A program made the translations under genes and the position numbers. The notes below the pieces were generated by a model. That model did no database searches. It had not been told where the DNA came from and saw only the letters and a program-made list of their open reading frames with translations. DNA of 64,000 nucleotides from Hirsutella rhossiliensis (lineage: Eukaryota; Ascomycota; Sordariomycetes; Hypocreales; Ophiocordycipitaceae): assembly GCF_020360975.1 (NCBI RefSeq), contig NW_025408667.1, forward strand, positions 3,472,001 through 3,536,000, read 5' to 3'. This document shows positions 2,843-43,094 of this stretch, one piece after another (the first letter of the stretch is position 1; each line of letters opens with the position of its first letter).

Positions 2843-3311
2843 TATTACGACCACGGTTAGCGGGCCGTAGGAGAGCCGGCCACGTTTACGTAACAAGGCG
2901 GCTCGGAATAATAGTCGGGACGAGAAGTCACTTAGGCTTAGCTTACCTAGAGCGTACGTAAGCTAAGTAAGCCTTATATAGATAGATCACTACTTAGGAG
3001 CATAGCTTACGAGTAAGCTATAGTAAGCTACGAAGGGGATTACGGCTAGGACCGTGATCTAAGGACAGTCTTTACGGGTATATATAGCTACCTACTTTTA
3101 CTCCTTTAGATAAATAGCTCGATAGCTTTTAATATAGATCTTTATTACGATTTATCTTTAATTCTAATTACCTAGTTATAGTCTACGGTCTACGACCTCC
3201 GACTTATTACTAACGTAATATACTTATTATTACTTAGACCACGCCCTATTATATCTACTAATATAAACCCCTCGATAGGTTTATCCCTTAGGAATAACAC
3301 CGGTCGTTATA
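2843..3311 (+). repeat. 5' LTR of gypsy A
   Basis: 469 bp, from TATTACGACCACGG (ancestral TGTTACGACC) to CCGGTCGTTATA. The ends form the inverted repeat TATTACGACC / GGTCGTTATA. It differs from the 3' LTR at scattered sites, mostly C/T or A/G transitions. I could not match the bases right after it (CGTTAAAAGCTC) to a tRNA primer site. Confidence 0.9.
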
Positions 3312-3509
3312 CGTTAAAAGCTCTTATTTAGTATAATACCGCGTTACTCTAAGCAATATCGTAACTATTAATATACCTATATAGTAAGCTAGATTAACTA
3401 ACTCTAGAGCTACTATATCGCTTTAGGATATAATGCGCGAAATTATCGCCCTTCGATATAAGGTATAGTTACTTAGGAACGGAGGAGGCAATAGATAAGT
3501 TAGGGACCT

Positions 3510-6500
3510 CGGAGAAGTAGTTAAACTAAAATAGCTAGGACTATTCGACGGTACTTACGGCACGCTTTAAGACTTTCTTACCTAACTTAAAGCCTACTAC
3601 CGGTTTTACCCTACTAAACTCTCGGACCTAGTCGAAAAGGTACTCTACGTAGGAAATTATTTATCTAGAACGGCACTCGCTTAGTTTAGACCTATTATAA
3701 GGGACTTTCTCGATAACTAACTAGCGCGATAAGATAATAAGATAGACGAAGTCTTTGCTAGTTTCTAAGGATTTAAAGAAGCTATTATAAAAGTATTCGG
3801 AATAACTAACGAGGAATAAGAAGCCGAATAGAAACTCTAAGAACTCCGATAAAAGATCTTAGTATCGGATTATACTACGAAGTTCCGTTAAGTTACCTTA
3901 AAGCTTAATTAAGACGACGAACCCCTTATATTACGATTCTACGACGGGCTTAAAGAAGAAGTTAAGGATAAGCTCTATAAGGAAAATCGACCTAATAACC
4001 TCTCGGACTATATTACTATAGTAGTACGAATCGACGATAGATAGTATACGCAACGCTAAGAAAAGAAATAAGGAAGAGGAAACTAGAACCCTTCCTATAG
4101 GAATAACTTTAACCGACGCGCTAACTATAAGAAGAAGCGCGAAACTCCTATTACCTACGCCTATATAACTAACCTAGGTAGGATAGATCTAGATATAATA
4201 TAAAAAAGCAAAGGAAAGTGTTTTAACTATAGGAAACCTAGATATTACTCTAAAGAATATAGATAACCTCGTAAGGAGAAGAAAACCTACTAGGCACTAG
4301 CCCTAGAAGGTAAGAAACACCTAAACGCTACTAATAGATAGGAACTAAAGTATAAACTCCTTAGTTAGACTATATACTACGACGACGAATATACGGTATA
4401 CTTAAGCGATAAGAACGGTACTAGATAGTTCCTAAAGCTATTAAAGAAGACCCTTATAATAATATAACGAAGGGATCCTAAAACATAGAAATAAGTTAAA
4501 TTCGTAGAACTAGAATACCCTTATCCTAAAGGAGTCTCCTAAGACTAGATTAGGAAAAACGGCAAACGATTCTAAGAGGATATATAAAATAAAAATCGAT
4601 AATAATAACGGGTAGTCTATAAATAATATAATAAAGAAGATACGGACGTAGCCCTTATACTTATAAAACTCGGATAATAACCTAAAGAGGAATAACGAAG
4701 TATCGACGATATAAGCTCTAAAGAATAAGAAATACCTAGAGAAATAGAAGACGAGAACGAACTTATACTACTACCCTCGTTACTAAGGGAAAATACTACG
4801 ATTAGAGAATACGCTCTATACTTCGAAGAATTTAAAGAAATACTTAAAATTAGAACTTAATAAATACCTTAAATTCTTACGGAAAACTAATAAGCTATAT
4901 TAATTCGATATTAACCGGCACTACGCGGAGGAGACTACGCTATAGCTATCGCTATAGTCGATACCTTTATAGCTCTATAATAAGAATAGTAACTATAAGG
5001 AGAATTTAAAAACGATCTATAAATACTACTTACTTATAAGCACTATAAGTATATTTTATAGATATTATACGTCTACCTAGATTATATAATATACTTCTAG
5101 ATAAAGGCACGATATAACGCCTTCCCGGTTAGGTTCGAAGGATAAGTACTTTCGAAACCCTACCTAAGTATAGAACTAGACTACTAGAAAATCGATTAAC
5201 GCTACCTAAACGACTAAGTTATATTATTAGAACCCGATTATAGTATACTACTTAAATGCCGCGATGATTACGGTTTATTAACGAGATATCTTTCGGAGAT
5301 ATATAAAATCTATAAATACGCTAAAATAGAGGAATAGCATAGCGCTACTCGCTCTAAGGCATCCGAACTATTAATCTTCTAAAGACTTACGCAACGAATT
5401 AAATACGATAAAGAAGATTATAACGAATACGTATACCTAAACTATAGAGTTTATAAATATAAAAAGGCATAAGTATAGTATAAACGATATAACGGTATAC
5501 TAAAAGATTATTAGCAATATATACGAAGGCTATAAGCCGTATTCGACTAAGGGAGAATCGATATAAAAACACTACGTGCGAAATAGAAAGACATAGAACG
5601 AAAACTCGACCTTTAGTATAAAAACGAATAGAATTACGAAGTATAGTACGTAATTAACTATAAAGTAGTATAATATAAACAATATAGCGTTAAGAAATAA
5701 GAAATCTTCGATTAGCTATAAGAAATTAGTCTCTTAAGCCCCGATATAATACTACGCGACGAAAATATAAAGAAACGATATTAATAATAAATCGAAGAAG
5801 AATACCTAAATAAGACGAATAAGGACTAGGTAAAAAACGAGGTATACTATCTATAAAAGGGCTATAGACTAGCACGACACGATAAGATCTAAGGACCCTA
5901 TATATAGTAACGGTAAGCTATAGCGACTAAATAGTATTAGATATCTAAATCGCGGGATATTATATACGTATACTTTTAGACTACGGCGCGATAGGCAATT
6001 ATATTTTACCTAGAGTCGTTAATCGTTACCGACTTATATAGAGATATAAGATAGATCTATATAAACTTACGAATATCGAAGGAGAGGCCTTTAACTATAA
6101 TAACGGAATTATTAATATAGAGATTAATTACCTTAATATTAATATCTAGGGCTACGACGAACGAGTTAACTTTAATATTATAGATATTAGAGAATATAAC
6201 CTTATATTAGGGCTTCTATAGCTATAGGAGAGCAACCTACTAATTAACTAGAAAACTAGCTAGCTACGTTAGAATAAAGACGTAAGTTTCTAGGACTAGT
6301 AGATTTAGAAGAAAGTAAAATTTTACGATAATTTAGCTACTAAATAAGATAAAAGGGATAACCGTTTAAGTAAATTATTACGGGCTTTAGCGATATAAAT
6401 AAAGATAGTAACCGAACTAGCGGATATAATAAAATCGACTAATAAGACCTACGTACTAACTAACACGGCTATATAACCTAGTATCCGATATAAATAAAAT

Positions 6501-9480
6501 AAAGGATATAATATAAAGATCTAAAGAGTTATTACTACTCTAAGGAAAGACCTTAAATAAATTAATAAAGAGCTTAAGTTAAGAGAAACCAGCTCTTAAA
6601 AGAAAGAATAAAGCCTATAAGATACAATAAAGAATATCCCCTAGGAATACCGGAAATATAATAAACTCTTTAAGGAAGAACTTAAGATAGGGTTACCTGA
6701 ATATAGCTAATAGGACTACGAAATTTATCTTAAAGATAGAATAACGCCGACGTTCTATAAAATCTATAACCTAAACGAAAAGCAACTATAAACGCTACGC
6801 GACTACCTCGACAAGAATCTACGAAAGGGATATATATAAATATTAATATCTAAAGTAGGCTATCTAGTTATATTTATTTTAAAGAAAAACGGTAAGCTAC
6901 GACTAGTTATCTACTATAGATAACTAAACGATATTATAATAAAGGACCGAATACTATTACCGCTTATATTAGAACTACGAGATCGACTATATAGTAAAAA
7001 ATAGTTTATAGCCCTTAACCTTAAAGGCGCCTATAACTTAATACGTATAAAAAAGGGACACGAATAGATAATAGCCTTTAAAACGAAATTCGGACTATTC
7101 GAATATCTAGTAATACTATTTAGACTTATAAATATACTAGCTACCTTCTAACGGATAATTAATAATATCCTATACGAATACTTAGATATCTTTATAGTAG
7201 TATACCTAGATAATATCCTAATCTTCTCGGATACCCTAGAAGAATATAAGGAATACGTCTATAAGGTACTCCGCGTACTTTAAAATACGAAGTTACTAGT
7301 TAAACTAAAGAAAAGTAAGTTCTATATATAGAAAGTAGACTTCCTTAGATATACGATCTTACTAAGAGAGATACGAATATAATAAGATAAGATTAACTTA
7401 GTTAAAGAATAGCTAACGCTAAAGAACGTTAAGGACGTATAAAGTTTCCTAGGATTTATAAATTACTACCGACGATTTATTAAAGATTTCGGAAAGATTA
7501 TAGTACTACTATATAACTTAACGAAGAAGGAAAAAGAATTTATATAGGACGATAAAGCTAACGAAGCTTTTAAATGCATTAAAACTATAATTATATAAGA
7601 ACTAGTCTTAACTACCTTTAATCTAGAACGATAAATCGAACTCGAAACCGATATATTAAACTTTACTCTAGGAGTATAAATCGGATAAAAAGATAATAAA
7701 GGAAGACTACGACTAATTATATTCTATTCGAAGAAGCTATATAGCGTAGAACTTAATTACCCTATTTACGATAAAGAATTCCTTATAATTATTTAAGCTT
7801 CTAAGGAATTTCGATACTACCTTCTTAGAAGTAAATATAAAGTTAAGGTCTATATAGATTATAAAAATATCTTATATTTTATAACGACGTAATAATTAAA
7901 CGGACGATAGATCCGATAGGCTAAATACTTATTAGAATTCGACTACGAAATAATCTATAGAAAAGGAATAGAAAACGGTCGAGCTAATACCCTTAGTCGA
8001 CGAAGTAACTATAATATAGGAGCACCTATAGCGAAAGGATAGCTCCTAGAAATTAACGAAAACGGGAACTACTAGCAACGATAGCTAAATATAATATTTA
8101 AAGTATAACCCGACGACTCGATATACTAAAAGATCCTAAAATAGATAAAAAAATTTAAAGTACTAAAGGGATACGATATAGAATATTCGGAAGTTCTAAT
8201 ATATAAGAATAAAATCTAGATACTACTAGAATTACGAGATAAAGTTATATAAGATATATATAAATATCTAATACATAGATACTAAGGAATCTAAAGAATA
8301 ATAGAACGGATTAAACGATAATATAACTTTCTATAGCTTAAAGAAGTAGTACGATAAGTTATTAAAGAATATAAACTTTACGTACGAAGTAAAGCTAAAT
8401 AATATAAACTATACGGAGAATTGCAACCGCTACTAGTACTAGAGAAACTATAGGATTCGATAGCTTTTAATTATATTATAAAGCTACTACCGTTAAAAGA
8501 ACCTATAACTAACGTTAAGTACGATAGTATATTCGTTATTACCGATAGACTAACGAAGTACGGATACTTCTTACTATATAAAGAAGTAAGTAATATAAAA
8601 GAGCTAGTATATATATTCCTACGAATAATTATTAGCAATTATAGACTACCGAACGAGATTGTCTTTAATAGAGGAAGTATATTTATAGCTAAGTTTTAGC
8701 AAGCTCTTATAGTATAATTAGGGACGAAATATAAGCTTAGTATAGCTTATTACCTATAAATAGATAGATAAATAGAACGACTTAACTAAACGCTTAAATA
8801 ATATTTACGATACTATATTAGCTACGAATAAAACGATTAAGTTAAATAGCTACTAATAGCGTAACTAGCTTATAATAGCTTAGTTATAGAAATAACTAAG
8901 CTCTTACTAGTATACGCTAATTACGGATATAACCTAGAAGTATTTAAGGTTACTCGATAAGGACTATAAGTAGAACGAGCGATACTATAAGTAGATTAGC
9001 TACGAAAATTATATAAAGAAATATAATAAGAACTTTAATTCGTTAGAGAACGAATATCTACTTACTATAATTAGAAAAGATTATAGGGACTAATCTTTCG
9101 AGAGGGAGATATAGTCTACCTTATACGACGAAACATTAAAATAAAACGACTAAGCAATAAATTAGATTTTAAGAAACTTAGACCGTTTAAGGTTAAGAAA
9201 ACTATTTTAAAAGTTAACTACGAACTTTCGCTACTAATAATAATACGGATATACTTAATATTTTATATCTTATTATTAGAACTAGCGCTACGAAACGCTA
9301 AACTATAGGGAAAAATCGAAGTTAACGACGATTAAGAATATAAAGTAGAATAAATACTAGATATAAGAAAATAAGGTTAGCAATAAGAATACCTTATTAA
9401 GTAGAAGGGATACGGACTAGAGGAAAATACCTAGGAACTACTTAAGCACTTAACCTACTACGGTTCTCTACTTCGATAGT
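3510..9480 (+). pseudogene. Gag-pol polyprotein of gypsy A (chromovirus), RIP-degraded
   Basis: Gag near 3510-4200 reads as a Ty3/gypsy capsid (LFDGTYGTL motif, then an F-Y-P and WF-like region). A CCHC zinc knuckle lies at 4219-4260, with one Cys left and the others now Tyr. The protease D-x-G-A core is near 5965-6000, and the reverse transcriptase Y-L-D-D box is at 7202-7222 with the second D now N. RNase H is near 7640-8010, followed by an integrase HHCC region and catalytic core at about 8270-9000. A chromodomain lies at about 9330-9460 (EYLIK, K-G-Y, E-E-N-T-W). The frame ends near 9480. The many TAA/TAG codons sit where Gln or Trp is expected. Chromodomains steer integration to H3K9-methylated chromatin in this family, which suits the nested setting. 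Confidence 0.88.
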
Positions 9481-10068
9481 TCTACTAGCAAAATCTACCC
9501 TAGGCATCGTAAAATCACCTAACGAACTAATAGTATTTTAATTAATTATATTAAATCTACCTATAGACTAAACATCGACCACCGCTTTAGATTCTTAGCG
9601 CTTAGCCTCGTTAAGGTTATCTAAGGAACAAAGGCCCTAATAGACTATCTTAGTACCCTTTATCTTTAGCTAGCGCTTTTAACGGCGAAGCCGCGCTAAA
9701 CGAGCTAAGGCTTTATTTAGGTCGGCTTAAGCTTTTAATATTCGCTCCTTAGTAATTTCTTCTTCTTTATCTAATCGATCGGACTCTAGATTTATTCGGG
9801 ACACTAGGACATACGTTAGCTGCAAACAATAGGTAGGACAACGAAGTCACCTACGAGAGCTGATCGCTACGCCCGACGCATCGCAGGAACGACCCCGCCG
9901 TATATATTCGGCATACTTAGAAGATTTCTCTAGCATTTTACAGCGGAAGCCGCGCGACGAATAGAAAGAATATAGTATAACGTCGAAACTAAGACGATTA
10001 ATAGACTTAGCTAAACGAATACGCTTAAGGGTCTTACGAGAACGATCCTTCGACACGCGACTAGACAT
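9442..10068 (-). pseudogene. Antisense accessory gene of gypsy A: Zn2Cys6-like cluster plus coiled coil
   Basis: Lies on the strand opposite pol, between the chromodomain end and the 3' LTR. Exon 1 starts at an ATG at 10068. Residues 33, 36, 43, 52, 55 and 62 read Y, Y, C, Y, Y, C with spacing 2-6-8-2-6, the Zn2Cys6 pattern if the tyrosines (TAY) were cysteines (TGY) before RIP. A phase-1 intron is inferred at 9804-9854 (GTAGGT donor, GCTAACG branch, TAG end, 51 nt). Exon 2 is Glu/Lys-rich, with a conserved A-L-A-R-L-A-R-L-R-R stretch and an L-C-S-L-D segment, and ends S-R-L-S-A-stop at 9442, overlapping the pol end by about 38 nt. Copies B and C have the same frame. DNA binding is inferred, not shown. 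Confidence 0.7.
9804..9854 (-). other. Inferred spliceosomal intron in antisense gene of gypsy A
   Basis: On the minus strand it begins GTAGGT, contains GCTAACG about 13 bases before the end, and ends TCCTAG. It is 51 nt long, phase 1, and keeps the frame between the Cys-cluster exon and the coiled-coil exon. Copy C has the matching intron at 26306-26357 in the same phase. Confidence 0.6.
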
Positions 10069-10182
10069 ACTATTAGCAGTATATCCTAAGGGATAGAAAG
10101 AACGAACGGGGAATATATATACGCGCGATAAGGGTATATTTATACACGGCGGCTAAGGCAGCAGCAGGTCTTGCGGATAAGA

Positions 10183-10199
10183 CTAAAAGGAGGGGAGAC
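10183..10199 (+). promoter_or_regulatory. Polypurine tract of gypsy A
   Basis: Purine-rich AAAAGGAGGGGAGACA just before the 3' LTR at 10204. It is the expected primer site for plus-strand DNA synthesis and is matched by the complement in copies B and C. Confidence 0.75.
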
Positions 10200-10203
10200 A
10201 TCG

Positions 10204-10672
10204 TATTACGACCACGGTTAGCGGGCCGCAGGAGAGCCGGCCACGTTCACGTAATAAGGCGGCTCGGAATAATAGTCGGGACGAGAAGTCACTTAGGCTT
10301 AGCTCACCTAGAGCGTACGTGAGCTAAGTAAGCCTTATATAGATAGATTACTACTTAGGAGCATAGCTTACGAGTAAGCTATAGTGAGCTACGAAGGGGA
10401 TCACGGCTAGGACCGTGATCTAAGGACAGTCTCTACGGGTATATATAGCTACCTACTTTTACTCCTTTAGATAGATAGCTCGATAGCTTTTAATATAGAT
10501 CTTTATTACGATTTATCTCTAATTCTAATTACCTAGTTATAGTCTACGGTCTACGACCTCCGACTTATCACTAACGTAATATACTTATTATTGCTTAGAC
10601 CACGCCCTATTATATCTGCTAATATAAACCCCTCGATAGGTTTATCCCTTAGGAATAACACCGGTCGTTATA
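10204..10672 (+). repeat. 3' LTR of gypsy A
   Basis: 469 bp, collinear with 2843-3311 and with the same terminal inverted ends. It retains a few CpA/TpG sites lost in the 5' LTR. Confidence 0.9.
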
Positions 10673-10920
10673 ATATAGCTAGGCACCTTATCCTAAGGTG
10701 CCCGAACTATAGGAGGGAAAGAGAGGTCCTTTATCGGACCTCTATAAGACGGAAGGAGGCCCTTAGCCTACCTTTTCTCTATAGCTCTAAGGAAGGAAGG
10801 GAAGCCCTTTTAACCTTCCTAGCTAAACTAGAGATAGGAACGGCTAAGTAGCTTAAAAAGGAGTAACCTAGGGGCCCTAGGGCCCTTAGGGGGGAAAAAC
10901 ACCGCGCGGGAGGAACTAAA
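10673..10920 (+). mobile_element. LINE remnant, 3' end, with right TSD of gypsy A
   Basis: After the ATATA duplication (10673-10677) the frame continues ARHLILRCPNYRR and runs to a stop near 10849-10851. This is the Cys/His tail and C-terminus of a fungal LINE ORF2, continuous with 2720-2842. A G/C-rich 3' untranslated part with CCTAGGGGCC-like runs follows to about 10920. The element is 5'-truncated within what can be seen here. Confidence 0.6.
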
Positions 10921-16906: not shown

Positions 16907-18831
16907 ATGGAGTCAACAGACCCTGCCGTTGCCTGCGCTGAGAGTATCGCCATACTCTCTACCTTCTCCATCCGGTTCCCACCCCGCCATCTTCAAACCT
17001 AGTCGCCAACTCGTCCACTTGTCCATCTGGACAATACTCCCTGCCATTCGAAAGAGAGCGTGACCTAGCTAGCACGCTGGCGTTTCTATCAAGCACTAAA
17101 GACGACCCGAACCACGTACCGGCCCTTTGTATACAGGAAAATCCAAACGAGGGGACTTTAAAAACGTTCTAGTCGCTGTGAATGAAGCCAAGCGCGGCGA
17201 TGGCCGTCAGGCTTTACAAAACATTGAGGCAGGCTTTAAGGATATATTTTCACTACTTTCGCAAACCTCCCAGTGTGAGCATTTCTCGACCTTCTTACAC
17301 GCCCACTAAATTGACCTGAGTTAAAGTCACAAATGTCGAAAATATGGTCTTCGCTGGAATCATCTCAATGTGCTTCGAGCGGATTCGTGGGCGTCTACGC
17401 TTCAGCACCAGGAGGGCGCCTAAACAACCTGTGAAGCAGATTTTGCAGAACGCCGCGAAAGCGCTCTTTTCAGCTGCACCCTTATTTGTGCAGAGATCAA
17501 AAGAATTGATCGGTAAGATAGATTCATGGGCTCAACACCAGACACTGGCTCAGTTGCAGGGCGTTGTTGAAGGCGTTTTTCATCTATCCCAACTGGATGG
17601 CTTGCGCGAAATGCTTGACTCCATTCCAAATCGGCAAATGGGCCCAAGTGAAAGGAAAAGCTTGTGGAATATCGTCAAAAAGATCGCACGGTATCGGGAG
17701 GCAGCCAGATACCTGTGCCGCACAGCGAAGAAATTCGTTCAGGTCGGGCGAATGCAGACTGTCCTCGTCAGCCTGCCTCAGTATGCCTTCAGAGGAGCAC
17801 CAACGGAACGGCCATATTCAACACTTTCATCCGTTCTTGCACGACTGAATATGAAGAGGCAGCACCGAAGGGGCTTTGGTCAGATCTGGCGCTTGTTTGG
17901 CATCAGTGAGCTGGAAGCTAGCGATCGGTTCGCCAAACAGAGGGATAAAACAATGTCGGAAGCAAAGATCCACGCCGAGATACAAGTCATCTTCTACATC
18001 GAAACTATAGGCCCCCAGCCCCTCCCTCGAGTCATTTGTTCCAGTAAAGATGCTTGCTTTCTATGCAATGCTTTCATCGCCATGCATGGGAAGTTCCACA
18101 CACCACGACACCATGGTAGACTCTATCCTGGCTGGCGGTTGCCACATTTTCCTCAGCCGAGCGACCTGGAGCGACGCTTTATCCAGATGCTGGATAATCA
18201 CGCCAAAGACAGTATCAGAACGATACTTTCAAGGCAGAAAAAGACAACCTACCCGGATCCAAATGAGAGTACGATCTTAACATTGCCGATATCGAATTCA
18301 ACGCTGAGCAGCTTGAACGGCGGGAGCGGTATTGCGCAGGTGCGCAATGGCGTGTGCCCAATGAGCAGCTTCGAGTCTCGAGCATCGGACAAGTTGATCA
18401 CTGCACCCCAAGAGCAGACGCCCGCTGAGCCAAATTCCGAGAATGCAGATCAAGCTGGGCAGAAAACCATACCACCGTTGGCTGAATCCACCTTGCAGAG
18501 TGCAGCGTTGACTCCACTCCCTCGAGGTGAAACACTGGTAGTGGCTGTAGAGGCCAACGATACGTCTGCACTATATGAAGCGTGGCCGATACGGTTTCAA
18601 GTCGAATACTCGGCTCAAGTTGGACCTATTCCACGACACAATAGACGAAGGACACTTGTCTGTTATCTTGAATGGTTAAATGGGGAGGAGGCGGAGACTG
18701 TGAGGGGGGCCGAAAATGCCAGGATTATCGATGCGGAGCTTCTTGAGGACTGTATCTCAATAAGCCCGGATGATTTGGACAAGTTTTACATCTGCGCTCG
18801 GGGCACTTTACTGCGGATTCGTGTCGCATAA
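16907..18831 (+). CDS. OTT_1508-like deaminase family protein, probably frameshifted
   Basis: The main exon (17321-18831) contains a deaminase-superfamily zinc site: H210-A-E212 then C238-x2-C241, numbered from the ATG at 17344. These are followed by H-G-K-F-H and H-G-R-L-Y-P-G-W-R-L-P, a pattern I know from fungal OTT_1508-like deaminases. Upstream, an inferred 46-nt intron (17275-17320) connects to LVAVNEAKRGDGRQALQNIE. Before that, the sequence from about 17024 (ERERDLASTLAF, DDPNHVPALCIQE) is in another frame, joined only if one base is missing in the A5 run at 17160-17164. The start is uncertain: an ATG at 16907 opens STDPAVACAESIAILSTF in a third frame. It is either a decayed gene or carries sequence errors. 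The substrate is unknown; nucleic-acid or nucleotide deamination is expected from the fold. Confidence 0.65.
17275..17320 (+). other. Inferred intron in the deaminase-like gene
   Basis: Donor GTGAGC after CCCAGT, ACTAAAT as possible branch site, ending CTGAG. 46 nt, phase 1. It joins the N-terminal helical exon to the frame holding the H-A-E and C-x2-C motifs. Confidence 0.55.
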
Positions 18832-21222: not shown

Positions 21223-21687
21223 TATAACGACTAGTATTATTCCTAAGGGATAAACCTATCGAGGGGTTTATATTAGTAGATATAATAAGGCGTAGTCTAA
21301 GCAATAATAAGTATATTATATTAGTAATAAGTTAGAGGTTATAGACTATAGACTATAACTAGGTAATTAGAATTAAAGATAGAATCGTAATAAAGATCTA
21401 TATTAAAAGCTATCGAGCTATCTATCTAAAGGAGTATTCCGTTCTTTCCTTATATATCTCGAGAGCTTCCCTAGATCGCCGAGAGCACTAGGTAATCTCG
21501 TCGCCTAGGAGCGCTAGGGCGCTAGAGCGATCCTATAATCCTAGCTATAGAGCGTTAAAGCGCTAAAGTAACCCGTCGCTCTAAACTTAATTAGCCCGTT
21601 AGTCCGTTTAATATTCCTTGCTCCCTACGTTATATATCCTCGTAATATATACTAGTCCCCGTAGTTTACTAGACCGTAGTTATAATA
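21223..21687 (-). repeat. 3' LTR of gypsy B (U3 type B)
   Basis: 465 bp, from TATAACGACTAG to CCGTAGTTATAATA. Its U3 matches the LTR at 2114-2556. It contains a short internal duplication of the GCGCTA-rich segment near 21510-21570. Confidence 0.8.
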
Positions 21688-21823
21688 AGATACCTCCCTT
21701 CCTTTTAGTCCTACCCTTAAGACCTACTACCTTAGCCGCTATATATAAATATACCCTTATTGCGTTATATATAAGTATATCGTTTCTTATTCCTTTATCC
21801 TTTTAGGATATATTGCTAATAGT

Positions 21824-22472
21824 ATATCTAGTTATATTTAAAAATCCTATTCTCGTAATTCCGATAAATCGCGTTAACGATTAAAGCTAGTATCTTAGAC
21901 TAAGATCTATAGTATTAAAATTATACCTTACTCCTATTATTTTCGGTTAGGCTTAACTTATAAGGTTAGCGAGCGTTTTAATCGGTATTTTAAATATACC
22001 TTTATAGGCCGTTCTTATAATAGGTATAATATAGCGTCCGCTTATTTATTTTATCCCTTTCCTTTTTTATTATTCTTTTTTATTAATATTTCTTCTTTTT
22101 CTAGTTTATTATATTATAAATTAATAGTAAAGGATTAATTCGGACGAATAGAAAGTAAAAGAAGCGTTAAAGGAAGCGATAGCTCGCCTAGCTCGGATTA
22201 GGAAATAAAAGCGTTTCTTAAAGGACTAAGGTAGTAAGTTATTTTAGCGGGGTATATAAGCTATTAATAAAGAAGATAATATAACGTATTCTTCTTAAGA
22301 TAAATCGGTTTATTTATTAAATAAGGAAACTATTACTATTAGCGAGGTTTAATTATTTAGTGCCTTAGATATATTAGACTAGGATACTATTCTTAGTAAC
22401 CCTATATTTCTAAGTAAGGGTTCGCTTAATAGAACTATAAGAGTAGAGAACTATAGTAGGTTAAGTGCTTAA
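21824..22472 (+). pseudogene. Antisense Zn2Cys6-like gene of gypsy B
   Basis: Opposite-strand frame between the 3' LTR and chromodomain of copy B. It starts at ATA (ancestral ATG) 21824. Residues 36, 39, 46, 55, 58 and 65 (21929-22018) are all Tyr with spacing 2-6-8-2-6, identical to copy A, consistent with six TGY cysteine codons all changed to TAY by RIP. Between them F-R-L-G-L-T and K-V-S-E resemble fungal Cys-cluster sequences. After a likely intron ending TTTTTCTAG near 22101, a helical stretch (E-A-I-A-R-L-A-R-I-R-K) follows and the frame ends S-R-L-S-A-stop at 22472, overlapping the pol end. Several CAG/CAA codons are now stops. Confidence 0.65.
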
Positions 22473-25400
22473 GTAGTTCCTAGGTATTTTCCTTTAGTCT
22501 ATATCCCTTTTACTTAATAAGGTATTCTTATTACTAACCTTATTTTCTTATATCTAGTATTTATTCTACTTTATATTCTTTATTATCGTTAACTTCGATT
22601 TTTTCCTATAGTTTAGCGTTTTATAGCGCTAGTTTTAATAATAATATATAAAATATTAGGTATATCCGTATTATTATTAGTAGCGAAAGTTCGTAGTTAA
22701 CTTTTAAAATAGTTTTCTTAACCTTAAATAGTCTAAGTTTCTTAAAATCGAATTTATTACTTAGTTATTTTATTTTAATATTTCGTTATATAAGGTAGAT
22801 TATATCTCCCTCTTAAAAGATTAGTCCCTATAATATTTTCCGATTATAGTAAGTAGATATTTATTCTCTAATAAATTAAAGTTCTTATTATATTTCTTTA
22901 TATAATTTTCGTAGCTAATTTACTTATAGTATCGCTTATTCCGCTTATAGCCCTTATTAAGTAACCTTAAATACTTCTAAGTTATATCTATAATTAGCGT
23001 ATACTAGTAAGAGCTTAGTTATTTCTATAACTAAGCTATTATAAGCTAGTTACGCTATTAGTAGCTATTTAACTTAATTATTTTATTTATAGCTAATATA
23101 GTATTATAAATATTATTTAAGCGTTTAGTTAAGTCGTTTTATTTATCTATTTATTTATAGGTAATAAGCTATACTAAGCTTATATTTCGTTCTTAATTAT
23201 ACTATAAGAGCTTACTAAAACTTAGCTATAAATATACTTCCTTTATTAAAGATAATCTTATTTAATAGTCTATAATTACTAATAATAGTTTATAGGAATA
23301 TATATACTAGCTCTTTTATATTACTTACTTCTTTATATAGTAAGAAGTACCTATACTTTATTAGTCTATTAGTAATAATAAATATACTATTATACTTAAC
23401 GTTAGTTAAAAGTTCTTTTAATAGTAGTAGCTTTATAATATAGTCGAAAGCTATTAAATCCTATAGTTTCTTTAGTACTAATAGCGGTTATAATTCTTTA
23501 TATAGTTTATATTATTTAGCTTTACTTTATATATAAAGTTTATATTCTTTAATAACTTATTATACTACTTCTTTAAGCTATAGGAAGTTATATTATCGTT
23601 TAATCTATTTTATTATTCTTTAGATTCCTTAATATCTATATATTAGATATTTATATATATCTTATATAACTTTATCTTATAATTTTAGTAGTATCTAGAT
23701 TTTATTTTTATATATTAGAACTTTTAAATATCCTATATTATATCTATTTAGTACTTTATATTCTTTTATCTATTTTAAGATCTTTTAGTAAGTTAAGTCG
23801 TTAGGTTATATTTTAAATATTATATTTAGCTATTATTACTAGTAGTTTCTGTTTTTATTAATTTCTAAGAGCTATCCTTTTACTATAGGTGCTCCTATAT
23901 TATAGTTACTTTATTGACTAAGGGTATTAGCTCGACTATTTTCTATTCCTTTTCTATAGATTATTTTATAGTTAAATTCTAATAAATATTCGGCCTATTA
24001 GATCTATCGTCTATTTAACTATTATATTATTATAAAATATAAGATATTCTTATAATTTATATAGACCTTAACTTTATATTTACTTTTAAGAAGGTAGTAT
24101 CGAAATTCCTTAAAAGCTTAAATAATTATAAGGAATTCTTTATTATAGATAAGGTAATTAAGTTCTACGCTATATAGCTTTTTTAAGTAAAATATAATTA
24201 GTTATAGTTTTTCTTTATTATCTTTTTATCCGATTTATACTCCTAGAGTAAAGTCTAATATATTAGTTTTAAGTTCGATTTATTATTTTAGATTAAAGGT
24301 AGTTAAAACTAGTTCTTATATAATTATAGTCTTAATATAATCGAAAGCTTCGTTAGCTTTATCGCCCTATATAAATTCTTTTTCCTTCTTTATTAAGTTA
24401 TATAGTAGTACTATAATCTTTCCGAAATCTTTAATAAATTATCGGTAGTAATTTATAAATCCTAGGAAGCTTTATACGTCCTTAACGTTCTTTAGCGTTA
24501 GCTATTCTTTAACTAAGTTAATCTTATCTTATTATATTTATATCTCTCTTAGTAAGATTATATATCTAAGGAAGTCTACTTCCTATATATAGAACTTACT
24601 TTTCTTTAGTTTAACTAGTAACTTTATATTCTAAAGTACGTAAAGTACCTTATAGATATATTCCTTATATTCTTCTAAGGTATCTAAGAAGATTAGAATA
24701 TTATCTAGGTATACTACTACTAAGATATCTAAGTATTCGCGTAGGATATTATTAATTATCCGTTTAAAGGTAGCTAGTATATTTATAAGTCTAAATAGTA
24801 TTACTAGATATTTAAATAGTTTAAATTTTATTCTAAAGGCTATTATTTATTTATATCCCTTTTTTATATATATTAAGTTATAGGCGCCTTTAAGATTAAG
24901 GGCTATAAACTATTTTTAACTATATAGTTAATCTTATAGTTTTAATATAAGCGGTAATAGTATTTAGTCCTTTATTATAATATCGTTTAAGCCTCTATAG
25001 TTAATAACTAGTTATAGCTTACTATTTTTCTTTAAAATAAATATAACTAGGTAGCTTACTTTAAATATTAATGTTTATATATATCCCTTTTATAGATTCT
25101 TATTAAGGTAGTTATATAGCGTTTATAGTTACTTTTCGTTTAAGTTATAGATCTTATAGAATGTTAGTATTATTCTATCCTTAAGATAAATTTTATAGTC
25201 CTATTAGCTATATTTAAGTAACCTTATCTTAAGTTCTTCCTTAAAGAGTTTATTATATTTCTAGTATTCTTAAGGGATATTCTTTATTCTATCTTATAGG
25301 CTTTATTCTTTCTCTTAAAAGCTAGTTTCTCTTAACTTAAGCTCTTTATTAATTTATTTAAGGTCTTTCCTTAAAGTAGTAATAACTCTTTAGATCTTTA

Positions 25401-25493
25401 TATTATATCTTTTATTTTATTTATATCGGATACTAGGTTATATAGCTATATTAGTTAGTATATAGGTCTTATTAGTCGATTTTATTATATTTA

Positions 25494-25943
25494 TATAACG
25501 ACCGGTGTTATTCCTAAGGGATAAACCTATTAAGGGGTTTATATTAGCAGATATAATAGGGCGTGGTCTAAGTAATAAAAAGTATATTACGTTAGTAATA
25601 AGTCGGAGGTCGTAGACCGTAGACTATAACTAGGTAATCGGAATTAAAGATAGAATTATAATAAAGATCGGTGTTAAAAGCTAGAGAGCTATCTATCTAA
25701 AGGAGTAAAAGTAGGTAGCTATATATACCCATAGAGACTGTCCTTAGATTATAGGCCTAGCTATAATCCCTAATGTTAGATCGTATAGAGCGTAGTAATC
25801 CTATTAATCCTAGATCACTTAGATCTCTGCGATCCCCTCGATCCTATATCCGTTAAATAGTCGTGCCGACTATTTATCCGTTAGACCGTGTTACGTACTT
25901 AACGCGGTCGACCGTTAGCGGCCTAGTAGCCGTGGTCGTAACA
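25494..25943 (-). repeat. 3' LTR of gypsy C (U3 type C)
   Basis: 450 bp. On the minus strand it begins TGTTACGACCACGG, the unmutated TG start, and ends GGTCGTTATA. Its R/U5 side matches copy A but its U3 differs. A fragment of the same U3 lies at 2557-2719. Confidence 0.85.
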
Positions 25944-26085
25944 CGATATCTCCCCTCCTTTTAGTCTTATCCGTAAGACCTACTGCAGCTGCCTTAGCCG
26001 CCGTATATAAATATACCCTTATCGCGTCGTGCGTAAGTATATCGTTCCTTATTTCTTTATCTTTTTAGGATATACTACTAATAGT

Positions 26086-26764
26086 ATATCTAGTCGTATA
26101 CTAAAAAATCGTTCCTAAAAAGCCTCCGAGCGCGCTACTCTTGCCGAATACATCGACTTAAGTAGAGATCCTACCGATATACCGTATACTCGATGCTTTA
26201 AGGCGAAGAAGACGAATTATCGGATAGCCGAAAATTCTTCGCGCTATAATAATTATATTGCTAGTAGTCGTCCCTATTATAATAGTGTTTTAGTGGCCTC
26301 TTCTTATAAGTGTCTTCTAATTCTTTCTACGTATAGTAGCTAACGTATTTCTTCTAGTAACTAAATTATTAGCGGAGCAGCGTAGGCTATATTCCGAAGA
26401 GGAGGAAGCTAGGGAAGCCTTATTAGAGCTTTAGGCGCAGCTTACGAACCTTTAGTCGTAAATATCTATCGCCGTTAATCGTTTAGCTTATATCCGGAAG
26501 ATTCGAAATTATACGAAAGAAAAGAGTTCTAAGTTATTTCGTCGTAGTATCTAAGAAGTAGATACCGAGGATAGCGTTTTGCCTACGCTCGATACGCATA
26601 AGCATTAGGTGGCAAATAATTTACAATTATTAGGCGTTCCTAACGAGGCGAATTAGTCCTCGTTCGGTATTAGCGAGGAGTTTATGGATCTTAGTCCTTT
26701 AATCCCTCCTAAACCTTCTAGTAAAATTATCGAAGTAGAGAGCCGTAGTAGGTTAAGTGCTTAA
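26086..26764 (+). pseudogene. Antisense Zn2Cys6-like gene of gypsy C, best-preserved coiled coil
   Basis: Starts at ATA (ancestral ATG) with S-S-R, as in copy A. Residues 34, 37, 45, 54, 57 and 64 (26185-26277) read Y, C, Y, Y, Y, Y with spacing 2-7-8-2-6. An intron at 26306-26357 (52 nt, donor now ATAAGT, GCTAACG branch, TTCTAG end, phase 1) restores the frame to LLAEQRRLYSEEEEAREALL, an acidic coiled-coil region. This continues to a conserved S-R-L-S-A-stop at 26764. Only a few internal stops occur, all CAG/CAA-derived. It is convergent with and overlaps the end of the sense chromodomain frame. No expression evidence is available. Confidence 0.7.
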
Positions 26765-29700
26765 GTAGTTCCTAGGTATTTTCCTCTAGTCCGTATCCCT
26801 TTTACTTAATAAGGTATTCTTATTACTAACCTTATTTTCTTATATCTAGTATTTATTCTACTTTATATTCTTAATCGTCGTTAACTTTGATTTTTTCCTA
26901 TAGTTTAGCGTTTCGTAGCGCTAGTTCTAATAATAAGATATAAAATATCGGGTATATCCATATTATTATTAGTAGCGAAAGTTTATAGTTAACTTTTAAA
27001 ATAGCTTTCTTAACCTTAAACGGTCTAAGTTTCTTAAAATCTAATTTATTGCTTAGTCGTTTTATTTTAATATTTCGTTATACGAGGTAGACTATATCTC
27101 CCTCTTAAAAGATTAGTCCCTATAATCTTTTCCGGTTATAGTAAGTAGACATTCGTTTTCTAACGAATTAAAGTTCTTATTATATTTCTTTATATAATTT
27201 TCGTAGCTAATCTACTTATAGTATCGCTCGTTCCGCTTATAGTCCTTATCGAGTAACCTTAAATACTTCTAGGTTATATCTATAATTAGCGTATATTAGT
27301 AAGAGCTTAGTTATTTCCGTAACTAAGCTATTATAAGCTAGTTACGCTATTAGTAGCTATTTAACTTAATCGTTTTATTCGTAGCTAATATAGTATCGTA
27401 AATATTATTTAAGCGTTTAGTTAAGTCGTTCTATTTATCTATCCGTTTATAGGTAATAAGCTATACTAAGCTTATATTTCGTCCCTAATTATACTATAAG
27501 AGCTTACTAAAATTTAGCTATAAACGTGCTTCCTCTATTAAAGATAATCTCGTTCGGTAGTCCGTAATTACTAATAATTATTCGTAGGAATATATATACT
27601 AGCTCTTCTATATTACTTACTTCTTTATACGGTAAAAAGTATCTATACTTCGTTAATCTATTAGTAATAACGAATATACTATCGTACTTAACGTTAGTTA
27701 TAGGTTCTTTTAACGGTAGTAGCTTTATAATATAGTCGAAAGCTATTAAATCCTATGGTTTCTCTAGTACTAGTAGCGGTTATAATTCTCCGTATAGTTT
27801 ATATCGTTTAGCTTTACTTCGTATATAAAGTTTATATTCTTTAATAACTTTTCGTACTACTTCCTTAAGCTATAGGAAGTTATATTATCGTTTAATCCGT
27901 TCTATTATTCTTTAGATTCCTTAGTGTCTATATATTAAATATTCGTATATATCTTATATAACTTTATCTTATAACGCTAGTAGTATCTAGATTTTATTCT
28001 TATATATTAAAACTTCCGAATATTCTATATTATATCCTTTTAGTGCTTTATATTCTTTTATCTATTTTAGGATCTTCTAGTAAGTCGAGTCGTCGGGTTA
28101 TACTTTAAATATTATATTTAGCTATCGTTGCTAGTAGTTCCCGTTTTCGTTGATTTCTAGGAGTTATCCTTTCGCTATAGGTACTCCTATATCGTAGTTA
28201 CTTTATCGACTAAGGGTATTAGCTCGACCGTTTTCTATTCCTTTTCTATAGATTATTTCGTAGTCGAATTCTAATAAGTATTCGGCCTATCGGATCTATC
28301 GTCCGTTTAACTATTATATTATTATAAAGTATAAGATATTCTTATAATCTATATAGACCTTAACTTTATATTTACTTCCGAGAAGGTAGTATCGAAGTTC
28401 CTTAAAAGCTTAAATAATTACAAGGAATTCTTTATCGTAGATAGGGTAATTAAGTTCTACGCTATATAGCTTCTTTAAATAGAATGCAATTAGTCGTAGT
28501 TTTCCTTTATTATCTTTTTATCCGATTTATACTCCTAGAGTAAAGTCTAATATATTAGTTTCGAGTTCGATTTATTATTCTAGATTAAAGGTAGTTAAGA
28601 CTAGTTCTTATATAATCGTAGTCTTAATATATTCGAAAGCTTCGTTAGCTTTATCGTCCTATATAAATCCTTTTTCCTTCTTCGTTAAGTTATATAGTAG
28701 TGCTATAATCTTTCCGAAATCTTTAATAAATTATCGGTAGTAATTTATAAATCCTAGGAAACTTTATACGTCCTTAACGTTCTTTAGCGTTAGCTATTCT
28801 TTAACTAAGTTAATCTTATCTTATTATATTTATATCTCTCTTAGTAAGATCGTATATCTAAGGAAGTCTACTTCCTATATATAGAACTTACTTTTCTTTA
28901 GTTTAACTAGTAACTTCGTATTCTAAAGTACGCGGAGTACCTTATAGACGTATTCCTTATATTCTTTTAGGGTATCCGAGAAGATTAAGATATTATCTAG
29001 GTATACTACTATAAAGATATCTAAGTGTTTACGTAGGATATTATTAATTATCCGTTAAAAGGTAGCTAGTGTATTTATAAGTCTAAATAGTATTACTAAA
29101 TATTCGAATAGTCCGAATTTCGTTCTAAAGGCTATTATCTATTTATATCCCTTCTTTATACGTATTAAGTTATAGGCGCCTTTAAGATCGAGGGCTATAA
29201 ACTATTTTTTGCTATATAGTCGATCTCGTAGTTTTAATATAAGCGGTAATAGTATTCGGTCCTTTATTATAATATCGTTTAGGCGTCTATAGTCGATAAC
29301 TAGTCGTAGCTTACCGTTTTTCTTTAAAATAAATATAACTAGGTAGCCTACTTTAGATATTAACGTTCGTATATATCCCTTTCGTAGATTCTTATCGAGG
29401 TAGTCGCGTAGCGTTTATAGTTGCTTTTCGTTTAGGTTATAGATCTTATAGAACGTTGGCGTTATTCTATCCTTAAGATAAATTTCGTGGTCCTATTAAC
29501 TATATTTAGGTAACCCTATCTTTAGTTCTTCTTTAAAGAGTTTATTATATTTCTAGTATTCCTAAGGGATATTCTTTATTCTATCTTATAAGCTTTGTTC
29601 TTTCTTTTAAGAGCTAGTTTCTCTTAACTTAAGCTCTTTATTAATTTATTTAAGGTCTTTCCTTAGAGTAGTAATAACTCTTCGGATCTTTATATTATAT

Positions 29701-31671
29701 CCTTTATTCTATTTATATCGGATACTAGGTTATATAGCTATATTAGTTAGTACGTAGGTCTTATTAGTCGATTTTATTATATCCGCTAGTTCGGTTACTA
29801 TTTTCGTTCGTATCGCTAAAGCCCGTAATAATTTACTTAAACGGTTATCCCTTTTATCCTATTTAGTAGCTAAATTATCGTAAAATTTTACTTTCTTCTA
29901 AATCTACTAGTCCTAGAAACTTACGTCTTTATTCTAACATAGCTAGCTAGTTTTCTAGTTAATTAGTAGGTTGCTCTCCTATAGCTATAGAAGCCCTAAT
30001 ATAAGGTCGTATTCTCTAATATCTATAATATTAAAGTTAACTTATTCGTCGTAGCCCTAGATATTAATATCGAGGTAATTAATCTCTATATTAATAATTC
30101 CGTTATTATAGTTAAAGGCCTCTCCTTTAATATTTATAAGTTTATATAGATCTTTCTTATATCTCTATATAAGTCGGTAATAATTAACGACTCTAGGTAA
30201 AACGTAATTGCCTATCGCGCCGTAGTCTAAAAGTATACGTGCGTAATATCCCGCGATTTAGATATCTAATACTATTTAGTCGCTATAGCTTACCGTTGCT
30301 ATATATAGGGTCCTTAGATCTTATCGTATCGTGCTAGTCTATAGCCCTTTTATAGATAGCGTACCTCGTTTTTTGCTTAGTCCTTATTCGTTTCGTTTAT
30401 ATATTCTTCTTTAATTTATTGCTAGTATCGTTTCTTTATTCTTTCGTCGCGTTAAGTTATTATTTAACTTAAGAGGCTAACTTCTTATAACTAGTCGAAG
30501 ATTTCTTATTTCTCGACGCTATATCGTTTATACTAAGTCGCTTCGCAGTTAATTGCGTGGTTTATATCGCAATTCTATTCGTTTTCGTACTAAAGGTCGA
30601 GTTTTCGTTCTATATCTTTTTATTTTTCGCGTAGTATTTCTATATCGATTTTTCCTTAGTCGAATACGGCTTATAGCCTTTATACGTATTGCTAATAATC
30701 TTTTAGTATACCGTTATATCGTTTATACTATACTTATACTTTTTTATATTTATAAACTCTATAGTTCGGGTATACGTATTCGTTATAATCTTCTTTATTA
30801 TATTTAATTCGTTGCGTAAGTCTTTAAAAGATTAATAGTTCGGATGCCTTAAAGCGAGTAGCGCTATACTATTCTTCTATTTTAGCGTGTTTATAGATTT
30901 TATATATCTCTAAAAGATATCTCGTTAATAAACTATAATTATCGCGGCATTTAAGTAGCGTGCCGTAATCGGGTTCTAATAATATAACTTAGTCGTTTAG
31001 GTAGCGTTAATCGATTTTCTAGTAGTTTAGTTCTATACTTAGGTAGGGTTTCGAAAGTACTTATCCCTCGAATCTAACTAAGAAGGCGTTATATCGTGCC
31101 TTTATCTAGAAGTATATTATATAATCTAGGTAGATATATAATATCTATAAAATATACTTATAGTGCTTATAAGTAAGTAGTATTTATAGATCGTCTTTAA
31201 ATTCTCCTCGTAGTTACTATTCTCGTTATAGAGCTATAAAGGTATCGACTATAGCAATAGCTATAGCGTAGTCTCCTTTACGTAGTGCCGGTTAATACCG
31301 AATTAATATAGCTTATTAGTTTTCCGTAAGAATTTAAGGTATTTATTAGGTTCTAATTTTAAGTATTTCTTCGAATTCTTTAAAGTATAGAGCGTGTTCT
31401 CTAATCGTAGTATTTTCCCTTAGTAGCGAGGGTAGTAGTATAAGTTCGTTCTCGTCTTCCGTTTCTCTAGGTATTTCTTATTCTTTAGAGCTTATATCGT
31501 CGATACTTCGTTATTCCTCTTTAAGTAGTTATCCGAGTTTCGTAAGGATAAGGGCTACGTCTATATCTTCTTTATTATATTGCTTATAGACTACCCGTCG
31601 TTATTATCGATCTTTATTTCGTATATCCTCCTAGAATCGTTTGCTGTTCTTCCTAATCTAGTCTTAGGAGA

Positions 31672-31910
31672 CTTAAACTATAAAGTTTATAAATATAAAA
31701 AAGTTTATATATAGTATAAATAATATAATAGTATACTAAGATATTATTAGTAATATATATAAAGACTATAAGCTATATTCGACTAAGGAAAAATCGATAT
31801 AAAAATACTATACGAAAAATAAAAATTCGCTAAACGAAAACTTAACCTTTAATATAAGAATAAATAAAATTATAAAGTATAGTATATAATTAACTATAAA
31901 GTAGTATAAT
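31672..31910 (+). mobile_element. Ty3/gypsy copy D, left part, split by copia
   Basis: Plus-strand family-1 sequence equivalent to copy A 5446-5672 (gag-protease spacer). It is joined abruptly on its left to minus-strand copy C and interrupted on its right by the copia element. The last five bases ATAAT are the copia target duplication. Confidence 0.85.
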
Positions 31911-32394
31911 TGTCGCGAAGCGTGGCCTGATTTCGCAGTTCTCGGAGATATCCCTTGGCACGAGGGACTAAGGAAGCTGAAAAACACCCGGTGTGGAAGA
32001 AGGAAGAAGGAGCTGAAAAGAGGTGCAGAAAGGAGGGTGGGGGCATGAGGGGAAGCAGAAGTGGCGATGGCTTCCTATGGAGGTGGCGAGAGATAAGACG
32101 GATGTGCCGGCAACGGCTGGAAAGGAGGGGAAAAACCGGCAAAAAGCTCGGTAATCGAAAGGACATTAGTGGCTTCTTTAAGCAGGATCTTCTTTGTTAA
32201 TTAAGATGCTAGAAGGGTATAAAGAGGGGCGTTGGATAGAGGAAAGAAGGACAATCAAGGAAATATAACAATCACTCCCTACTGCAATTGCTGCCCTGCA
32301 AGATTCAAACATCTCTGCCCTGCCTGTCCGACCCTTACTTCTACTTTCACCTTCGTGCATTTTATATGCACTTCTCGCATCTCTCTTCGCGAGA
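31911..32394 (+). repeat. 5' LTR of copia element
   Basis: 484 bp. It differs from the 3' LTR at about ten positions, several of them CpA/TpA or TpG/TpA alternatives and a few 1-2 bp indels. Identity is about 97-98% by eye. Confidence 0.93.
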
Positions 32395-32407
32395 GTTATG
32401 AGCCGGG
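32395..32407 (+). promoter_or_regulatory. Half-tRNA(iMet) primer-binding site of copia
   Basis: GTTATGAGCC directly follows the 5' LTR and is complementary to the anticodon arm of initiator tRNA-Met (GGCUCAUAAC). This internal-fragment priming is the hallmark of copia-type elements. Confidence 0.8.
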
Positions 32408-32533
32408 AGGAATAGTATTCCTGTACCTTCCGGCTGCTGCAAAGGCACCCTTCTTGCATCCCTCGTGGCTCCCTTTACCCTCTTACTAGAAAAGCCGATT
32501 TTTAACCGACTTTTCTGCCCCTCTTTCGCAACG

Positions 32534-37457: not shown

Positions 37458-37710
37458 CGTCTGCAGCCGAAGAAAAGGAAGAGGTTTTTCCCTTTAGAGG
37501 GCCCCCTATTTTAATTGGGTTTTTCCCCCTTTCTTATAGGACTTTCCCCTCTTTAGGCCCCTTTTCCTTAAGTAGGTCTGAAAGAGCCCAGGGACCCGAA
37601 AGGGCCCCTGCTTTCCTCGAGTAAAGGGAGAAGTGCAGAGCTAAGAACCTCCTCTATACGCTCACCAGCCCGAAGCCGTATTAGCTATGCCCTTAAGGGG
37701 CAGGCCATAG

Positions 37711-37721
37711 CTAAGGGGGTG
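37711..37721 (+). promoter_or_regulatory. Polypurine tract of copia
   Basis: CTAAGGGGGTG directly before the 3' LTR. The same 11 bases precede the 3' LTR of the TRIM at 43294-43304. Confidence 0.8.
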
Positions 37722-42567: not shown

Positions 42568-42810
42568 TATTATAGTACGATTAGTTAGGTAGTAGAGATA
42601 GCTAGAGGTACTATACTATATATATTATATTCTCCTTATTATAAGACTAAAGCTTATAAGAAAAGGGATTTTTCCTCTTCTATTAAAATAGTAAGTAGTC
42701 TATAATATATAAGTAAGGTAAGCACGATTCCCTATTAATACCCTACTAATATATTAGTACTATATACCTAAGTGCTTTATTAGCCTATACCTCTTAGTAG
42801 CGCTCTTATA
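42568..42810 (-). repeat. F-array LTR 1 (3' LTR of F1)
   Basis: 243 bp, from TATTATAGTACGATTAG to AGCGCTCTTATA. It is followed on the right by the polypurine-tract complement ATTATCTCCCCTC. Confidence 0.85.
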
Positions 42811-43080: not shown

Positions 43081-43094
43081 GTTATAAGCCCGGG
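43081..43094 (+). promoter_or_regulatory. TRIM primer-binding site (initiator tRNA-Met half)
   Basis: GTTATAAGCCCGGG, one transition away from the complement of the initiator tRNA-Met anticodon arm (GTTATGAGCCC). Confidence 0.75.

Follow-up and report, generated by a model that had tools for sequence, protein, structure and literature searches.

Three decayed reading frames in a stretch of 64,000 nucleotides from Hirsutella rhossiliensis (contig NW_025408667.1, positions 3,472,001 to 3,536,000; the window) lie on the opposite strand of three copies of a long terminal repeat (LTR) retrotransposon, a chromovirus. With confidence a little better than even, we interpret these frames as the relic of an antisense gene of this element, whose six-cysteine protein is predicted to dimerize and to bind DNA in the manner of Gal4 and likely recognizes and restrains its own element via the matching U3, the unique 3' part of the LTR. 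In the searched genome (an assembly of 81.8 Mb in 40 contigs), there are five types of a cassette (A to E), each consisting of an antisense gene and its own U3, on one shared backbone, and this cassette probably serves the element as a switch for self-recognition. The parts of the three copies in the window, which are altered by repeat-induced point mutation (RIP), are as follows.

2843 to 10672, plus strand: copy A, a RIP-mutated chromovirus with both LTRs present (from self-BLAST, LTR ends, and flanks)
2843 to 3311 and 10204 to 10672: 5' and 3' LTRs of copy A, 469 bp each, 97% identical
9087 to 9305, plus strand: 3' part of the copy A pol, with a match to SH3_Tf2-1; sense strand, convergent with the antisense gene
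9442 to 10068, minus strand: decayed antisense gene of type A (exon 1, 9855 to 10068; exon 2, 9442 to 9803)
9804 to 9854, minus strand: putative intron of type A, 51 nt
9883 to 9972, minus strand: six-Cys/Tyr domain of type A, spacing 2-6-8-2-6
10204 to 10459: U3 of the copy A 3' LTR, type A, which travels with the gene; three palindromes (10298 to 10328, 10363 to 10382, and 10399 to 10420)
10460 to 10672: R-U5 (repeat and unique 5' part) of the copy A 3' LTR, common to the cassette types (0 to 2% transversions from A to C)
21223 to 25490, pol on the minus strand: copy B, a truncated chromovirus with the same backbone as copy A (from self-BLAST)
21437 to 21690: U3 of type B
21824 to 22473, plus strand: decayed antisense gene of type B, with the stop of the shared tail at 22471 to 22473
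22044 to 22104, plus strand: putative intron of type B, 61 nt, with a frame shift of +1 beyond it
25494 to 31673, pol on the minus strand: copy C, a chromovirus with the same backbone as copy A, 93% identical to A over 4.96 kb (from self-BLAST)
25708 to 25950: U3 of type C, with its own palindrome of 10-bp arms and one common to type A
26086 to 26764, plus strand: decayed antisense gene of type C
26306 to 26357, plus strand: putative intron of type C, 52 nt, with a frame shift of +1 beyond it

The pattern that defines the frames ([CY]x2[CY]x6-7[CY]x8[CY]x2[CY]x6[CY]) is found at exactly three places in the six-frame translation of the window, starting at 9972 on the minus strand and at 21929 and 26185 on the plus strand. 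It is found in none of 40 block-wise Markov shuffles of the window, which rules out a chance line-up of tyrosine codons. A preliminary description of this DNA had pointed to these three frames with six aligned positions and had counted 15 tyrosines and three cysteines among them; both observations are borne out (YYCYYC in A, YYYYYY in B, and YCYYYY in C).

The same description proposed that the ancestor had six cysteines, which RIP turned into tyrosines. To sample type A, the open N-terminal piece of the copy A frame was searched in the genome, and 150 of 310 candidates were scored, all 150 of them matching. Thirty type A loci (L009 being window copy A) and 30 type C loci (L039 being window copy C) were read; loci were picked by similarity to the queries, and the type frequencies are not those of random samples. 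In type A, all 180 cells of the six codon columns read TGY or TAY, and cysteines number none in 14 loci, one to four in 15, and six in one (L026). Type C likewise has TGY or TAY in 180 of 180 cells, with cysteine still found in some copies at columns 1 to 4 and TAT in all 30 loci at columns 5 and 6. For type B, the 10 complete loci give TGY or TAY in 60 of 60 cells, and cysteine survives in some of them at columns 1, 2, and 4 and never at columns 3, 5, and 6. L079 was left out of this count, and an eleventh locus, L073, which is interrupted within the gene, was counted as incomplete; its columns 1 to 3 lie beyond the break, and column 4, beside the break, reads GGT, which is neither cysteine nor tyrosine. 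The alternation of TGY and TAY is the trace expected of RIP at TpG. The proposal of a six-cysteine ancestor thus stands for type A, in which one copy keeps all six, whereas an ancestral cysteine at columns 3, 5, and 6 of type B and columns 5 and 6 of type C rests on homology because no surviving copy has cysteine there. A gene destroyed by RIP can be recognized by reading the sequence alone, via its tyrosine-for-cysteine pattern.

In all three types, the antisense frame occupies the opposite strand of the stretch from the 3' end of pol to the 3' LTR and contains the putative intron at one place and in one codon phase. The intron lengths modulo 3 (0, 1, and 1 for A, B, and C) equal the frame of the coiled-coil half (0, 1, and 1), and an intron of 51, 61, or 52 nt accounts for the frame change in all three types. 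The frames first given for B and C are therefore correct up to about residue 73 and wrong beyond it, where the putative intron had been overlooked. The tail S-R-L-S-A-stop, described earlier as common to the three genes, is indeed shared, but it sits in the common backbone (9442 to 9488), outside the variable gene. Intron signals (GT...CTAAC/T...AG) are present in 25 of 30 type A loci, and the donor is AT in the other five. For type C, every one of the 30 loci has an AT donor and 28 have an AG acceptor, and among 11 type B sequences, six have all three signals, three have an AT donor, and two show other departures. Types D and E are without the intron stretch. Of two database homologues, P0001 has extra residues at the intron spot and P0004 does not, a difference that fits unspliced and spliced gene models; splicing is a prediction made from sequence.

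Searches of protein collections with the open frame of L026 gave six relatives, one of which in turn gave 55, and the type D protein gave 148, of which 120 were taken, so that 177 proteins were retrieved overall. These are known here as protein sequences. An alignment of 48 of the 57 homologues retrieved by then (nine, mostly fragmentary, were left out) has a mean column identity of 25%, and its invariant columns are the six cysteines and two arginines. The six-cysteine pattern is present in 159 of the 177; of the 18 without it, nine are shorter than 150 amino acids and the others have 153 to 220, a few of them being full length. Most intact relatives therefore keep the cysteines, as the preliminary description had anticipated. 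The homologues come from Colletotrichum, Metarhizium, Verticillium, Pyricularia, Cordyceps, Fusarium, Gaeumannomyces, Pseudogymnoascus, and others; those with names are nearly all ascomycete, and they are annotated mostly as “hypothetical protein” and in some cases as “Zn(2)-C6 fungal-type domain.” P0038, labeled as from a Mucilaginibacter metagenome-assembled genome, belongs to this fungal family and is presumably contamination, and no relatives in viral contigs were confirmed. In H. rhossiliensis itself, the type D protein is 99.4% identical over 179 amino acids to HRG_004433, and the type E protein is 100% identical over 156 amino acids to HRG_014867. With the type A domain as the query, 88 database proteins rank before type D, which is the closest of the other types in the same genome.

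The Zn(II)2Cys6 cluster has the spacing C-x2-C-x6-C-x5-12-C-x2-C-x6-8-C, which fits exactly in 64 of the 159 homologues, with type A (2-6-8-2-6) among the fitting ones. Zn_clus (PF00172) is the family matched by most members of the 48 homologues scanned (17 at an E value of ≤0.1, the best being 0.0011), but all of them score below the Pfam cutoff (best, 19.5 bits for P0003, versus 21 bits). The hidden Markov model comparison suggested earlier thus gives matches without a score of 21 bits. The L026 piece scores 11.9 bits, the piece from window copy A gives no match to Zn_clus, and the antisense proteins of two copies without RIP (L081 and L082, type D included) give none at an E value of ≤0.01. 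Because the scores stay under the Pfam cutoff, the protein is called Zn2Cys6-like here and not a member of PF00172. An AlphaFold2 model (mean predicted local distance difference test score, 85.7) has short helices at residues 36 to 41 and 55 to 60 and one helix from 71 to 153, and among 19 Foldseek matches to it, ranks 1 to 6 and 8 are taken by PPR1, Pho7, GAL4, PUT3, and the CBF3 complex. The protein is thus predicted to consist of a basic N terminus, a Zn2Cys6-like cluster, and a long coiled coil for dimerization, and it presumably binds zinc and DNA. Like the Gal4-type proteins (PF00172; PPR1, PUT3, HAP1, and GAL4), which supply the top structural matches, it has C-x2-C-x6/7-C-x8/9-C-x2-C-x6/7-C followed by a coiled coil. 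Unlike them, it falls under the Pfam cutoff, is encoded on the antisense strand of a retroelement, and has few basic residues between cysteines 2 and 3.

That the frame is borne by the element, as had been proposed from the decayed copies, is confirmed by copies in the same genome that RIP has spared. With P0002 as the query, residues 9 to 147 match without a stop at two places, L081 and L082, which are copies of the same chromovirus with a GC content of mostly 0.44 to 0.49 and LTR pairs that are 99.2% and 99.4% identical. On their sense strand, open pieces in several frames match Retrotrans_gag, gag-asp_proteas, RVT_1, RT_RNaseH, rve, SH3_Tf2-1, and Chromo. The LTRs, the domain order, and the Chromo match at the end of pol identify the element as a chromovirus, that is, a Ty3/gypsy element with a chromodomain. 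On the opposite strand, between pol and the LTR, an open frame carries C-x2-C-x7-C-x9-C-x2-C-x7-C. This antisense gene and pol run toward each other, and in L081, the two overlap, the tail of pol reaching into the 3' end of the gene. Heavy RIP mutation marks types A, B, and C but not the copies of D and E that were read; it seems that RIP has weakened or that the bursts of D and E are very recent. Among L085 to L098, the type E copies compared are about 99% identical, with frames broken at different places by small indels. These scattered indels look like long-read assembly error and not decay, so that the intactness of a single copy cannot be judged here.

The antisense proteins of types D and E share 61% amino acid identity over 166 codons, and the differences at codon positions 1, 2, and 3 are 0.271, 0.253, and 0.566. 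The proportions of synonymous and nonsynonymous differences in the gene frame are 0.714 (pS) and 0.258 (pN), a pN/pS ratio of 0.36 (bootstrap, 0.27 to 0.47). The corrected values (dS, 2.27; dN, 0.32) give a dN/dS ratio of about 0.14, which is approximate because dS is near saturation. In both shifted frames and in two of the three opposite-strand frames, pN is greater than pS; the third opposite frame, which shares wobble positions with the gene, has a pS of 0.615 and a pN of 0.277. The contrast is strongest in the gene frame among all six, and the purifying selection looked for on the antisense frame is therefore found between these two types.

The gene and U3 behave as one unit on the common backbone, a joint exchange that the preliminary description had missed. 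Transversions were used for comparison since RIP does not make them, and four type A loci and one type C locus with an incomplete backbone were left out. Over 1 kb of pol (754 pairs), types A and C differ by 0.35%, compared with 0.25% within A and 0.24% within C, whereas in the gene (900 pairs), they differ by 24.3%; for window copy B, the pol difference from A and C is about 0.8%. With differences between types of 24 to 26% in the gene and <1% in the backbone, these values rule out that a single gene has simply decayed in three copies. What had been taken for three independently decayed copies of one gene are three distinct cassettes that share a backbone. Within the LTR, the U3 half differs between A and C by 20 to 35% in four 40-nt bins, R-U5 by 0 to 2%, and two 40-nt bins between the U3 and the gene by only 0.2 to 2.5%. 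Along 688 nt of backbone, 11 transversion sites were listed (those with at least three minority sequences), and A and C show no fixed difference at any of them; nor does B differ from these two in a fixed way where its sequences reach, 11 of the 12 being limited to the first 300 nt. Among 40 backbone copies scored from 756 candidates, 11 carry cassette A, 11 carry B, and 18 carry C (28 assigned by coordinates and 12 by reading), and the scored copies of type A, like those of type C, number at least 150.

The type of the U3 is that of the gene in all 89 loci that hold both, out of 91 sequences of types A to E; the other two, L073 and L079, have no U3 beside the gene. Types E and D follow the same scheme, with backbones that are 94.6 to 96.5% identical and an R-U5 that is 98.3 to 99.2% identical where found (it was not found in L092, L093, and L097), against genes that are about 63% identical and U3s that can be aligned over 24 to 28 nt only. 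A sixth cassette type was not seen among the 18 of 35 places read (L081 to L098), the four extra places fetched being all of type E. In the type B loci (L069 to L080), the R-U5 lengths vary, with six aligning over 219 nt and four over 202 to 208 nt, which suggests that R-U5 reassorts independently of the cassette.

Inverted-repeat coverage in the U3 exceeds that of shuffles in type D (z, 9.2), type A (z, 4.9), and type E (z, 3.5) and marginally in type C (z, 2.2; P = 0.04), and the inverted repeats of these four types mostly differ in sequence between types. CGG/CCG pairs are present in the A, C, and D stretches and absent from that of B in a scan of types A to D.

We infer antisense transcription and a regulatory role for the protein. 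The antisense transcript would start in the 3' LTR, with the short intron removed in types A, B, and C, and the dimeric Zn2Cys6-like protein would bind inverted repeats of its own U3. The U3 precedes gag-pol in the 5' LTR, where it would be the sense promoter, and in the 3' LTR it precedes the antisense gene, so that one binding event could act on both. A dimeric DNA-binding protein expressed from the side of the 3' LTR, together with palindromes in the neighboring U3, makes up the layout of a switch that regulates itself. The bound protein would damp the transcription of copies of the same type, and a copy that acquired another cassette would escape this type-specific control and could spread. 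Such copies could most simply arise during minus-strand synthesis if the strong-stop DNA (R-U5) jumped to the 3' end of a second copackaged RNA and copied the U3 and the antisense gene found there; by the retroviral replication scheme, a subsequent return to the first RNA within pol would yield the mosaics. The joint exchange of gene and U3 on one backbone is the product expected of selection for escape from a type-specific repressor, and escape by cassette swap would explain why several incompatible types exist on one backbone. The choice of repression over activation is nevertheless a commitment and not a result. Some observations weigh against this interpretation as a whole. The commonest spacing among the homologues, as in types D and E, is 7-9-7 (83 of 159), one residue wider in the first loop than that of the classical cluster. 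In addition, the inverted repeats in the U3 of type B are not enriched over shuffles, and the palindrome at 10399 to 10420 is common to types A and C.

A broader and more doubtful idea, which we put forward only tentatively, is that ascomycete LTR retrotransposons have immunity types. In these, an antisense Zn2Cys6-like repressor and its own U3 operators would let elements of the same type silence each other, and swapping of the cassette to escape would keep old, trans-species types on one backbone. If true, this would be a self-versus-nonself system run by the retrotransposon itself. A functional pairing of gene and U3 would provide a mechanism by which copy number is controlled and rival retrotransposon families coexist, and some “hypothetical” or “Zn(2)-C6” fungal gene models could then be explained as parts of retrotransposons. 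The five natural pairs on one backbone are a ready-made specificity experiment, and stop-free versions exist.

Two other explanations are each unlikely but have to be taken seriously, and neither is to be preferred over the other. In the first, the element encodes an activator, which recognizes the same U3 and turns on its own LTR or adjusts it to signals from the host, so that cassettes are swapped for new expression niches and not for escape from repression. Linkage and palindromes are expected alike under this explanation, and classical Zn2Cys6 proteins are mostly activators. The Tnt1 subfamilies also differ in the U3, which has been read as host adaptation or escape from host control in the part of that account available to us (PMC1838419). 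The amplification of several rival types on one backbone is, however, easier to explain by negative frequency dependence. In the second, recombination alone is at work: template switching joins old, diverged families at the 3' end, and the protein has another job (as a nucleic acid chaperone, in integration targeting, or in triggering double-stranded RNA or RNA interference) without recognizing the U3. Since the U3 and the gene adjoin, both would be moved by a single switch within pol plus the strand transfer that must occur at R, and R-U5 is shared; antisense RNA as a silencing trigger is also discussed for plant elements in the accessible part of one account (PMC7264820). Linkage is nonetheless complete in the 89 loci even though the two bins of low divergence between the U3 and the gene could recombine, and the palindrome-rich U3s and the conserved domain resembling DNA-binding ones would need a separate explanation.

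The capture of a host transcription factor fragment without function for the element (transduction) is very improbable. Fungal genomes are rich in Zn_clus genes, with 100 places in this genome at an E value of ≤0.001, but the 177 homologues, nearly all ascomycete where named, the selection between D and E, and the copy numbers of A and C speak against it. Hardly credible at all is an artefact, in which RIP opens tyrosine-rich frames on an AT-rich stretch by turning TGY into TAY or the frame is a by-product of a constrained sense-strand extension of pol (the wobble-sharing opposite frame is also constrained), given the shuffles, the real cysteines in copies without RIP and in database proteins, and the gene frame's having the strongest contrast of pN and pS.

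Elsewhere in the window, copy A is flanked on both sides by the 5-bp direct repeat ATATA, and copies B and C are oriented opposite to copy A. Two broken pol pieces (8454 to 8696 on the plus strand and 29205 to 29414 on the minus strand) have no Pfam match at an E value of ≤0.1, and an Rfam scan of 9000 to 10700 gave no match at the gathering thresholds. Copy C is interrupted at about 31.7 to 31.9 kb, and a Copia-like element lies inside it at 31911 to 38207, with LTRs that are 97.7% identical and largely unmutated open frames at 34619 to 37457; judged by eye, it looks much younger than the surrounding RIP-mutated elements. A second RIP-mutated, LTR-like family occupies 42554 to 58549, with tandem members at 43384 to 50393 and 50849 to 57856 that are 85.8% identical and shorter repeats between and after them. 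A 495-amino-acid open frame at 17344 to 18831, in a GC-rich island amid RIP-mutated elements, has HAE and CxxC-like residues that are reminiscent of a fungal nucleic acid deaminase.

The closest known system by position is brtn, the antisense gene of the Boty retrotransposons of Botrytis cinerea (PMC8365987, PMC7264820, and PMC4227169, citing Zhao et al. 2011, Virology 417:248), which also lies antisense between pol and the 3' LTR of a chromodomain element in an ascomycete. This likeness is one of position, and the available parts of the accounts of brtn do not mention a six-cysteine domain, an intron, linkage to the U3, or cassette types. In plants, the antisense open reading frames of Grande (gene23), RIRE2, and Retand (TRP28) likewise lie between pol and the 3' LTR (PMC7264820 and PMC11963269). 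As far as those accounts were accessible, the Retand protein is predicted to bind DNA with a proposed regulatory role, and an antisense promoter is described for Grande. Unlike the gene reported here, these belong to another protein family (TRP28; PF04195) and to plant hosts, and U3-linked exchange is not mentioned in the same parts. Tnt1A, Tnt1B, Tnt1C, and Retrolyc1 (PMC1838419) resemble the present elements in having a similar coding region, discrete U3 types, and modular LTR evolution, but the available part of that account does not mention a trans-acting gene linked to them, whereas here the U3 and the antisense gene move together. No report of a fungal retrotransposon with a Zn2Cys6-like antisense gene was found in the open PubMed Central literature, by titles and the starts of abstracts, although Zhao et al. 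2011 or subscription journals may hold one.

Antisense genes at this position and subfamilies defined by the U3 are thus already known. Measured against the accessible parts of these accounts, a Zn2Cys6-like protein in this role and a trans-acting gene that moves with its U3 are apparently new. Lambdoid phages have immunity regions in which a regulator that binds DNA is exchanged as a unit with its cognate sites between otherwise shared backbones. The comparison is one of how the system might work: in both, a regulator and a cis region are replaced together on a shared backbone, but the element here is a eukaryotic retroelement, for which binding and immunity are suggested by analogy.

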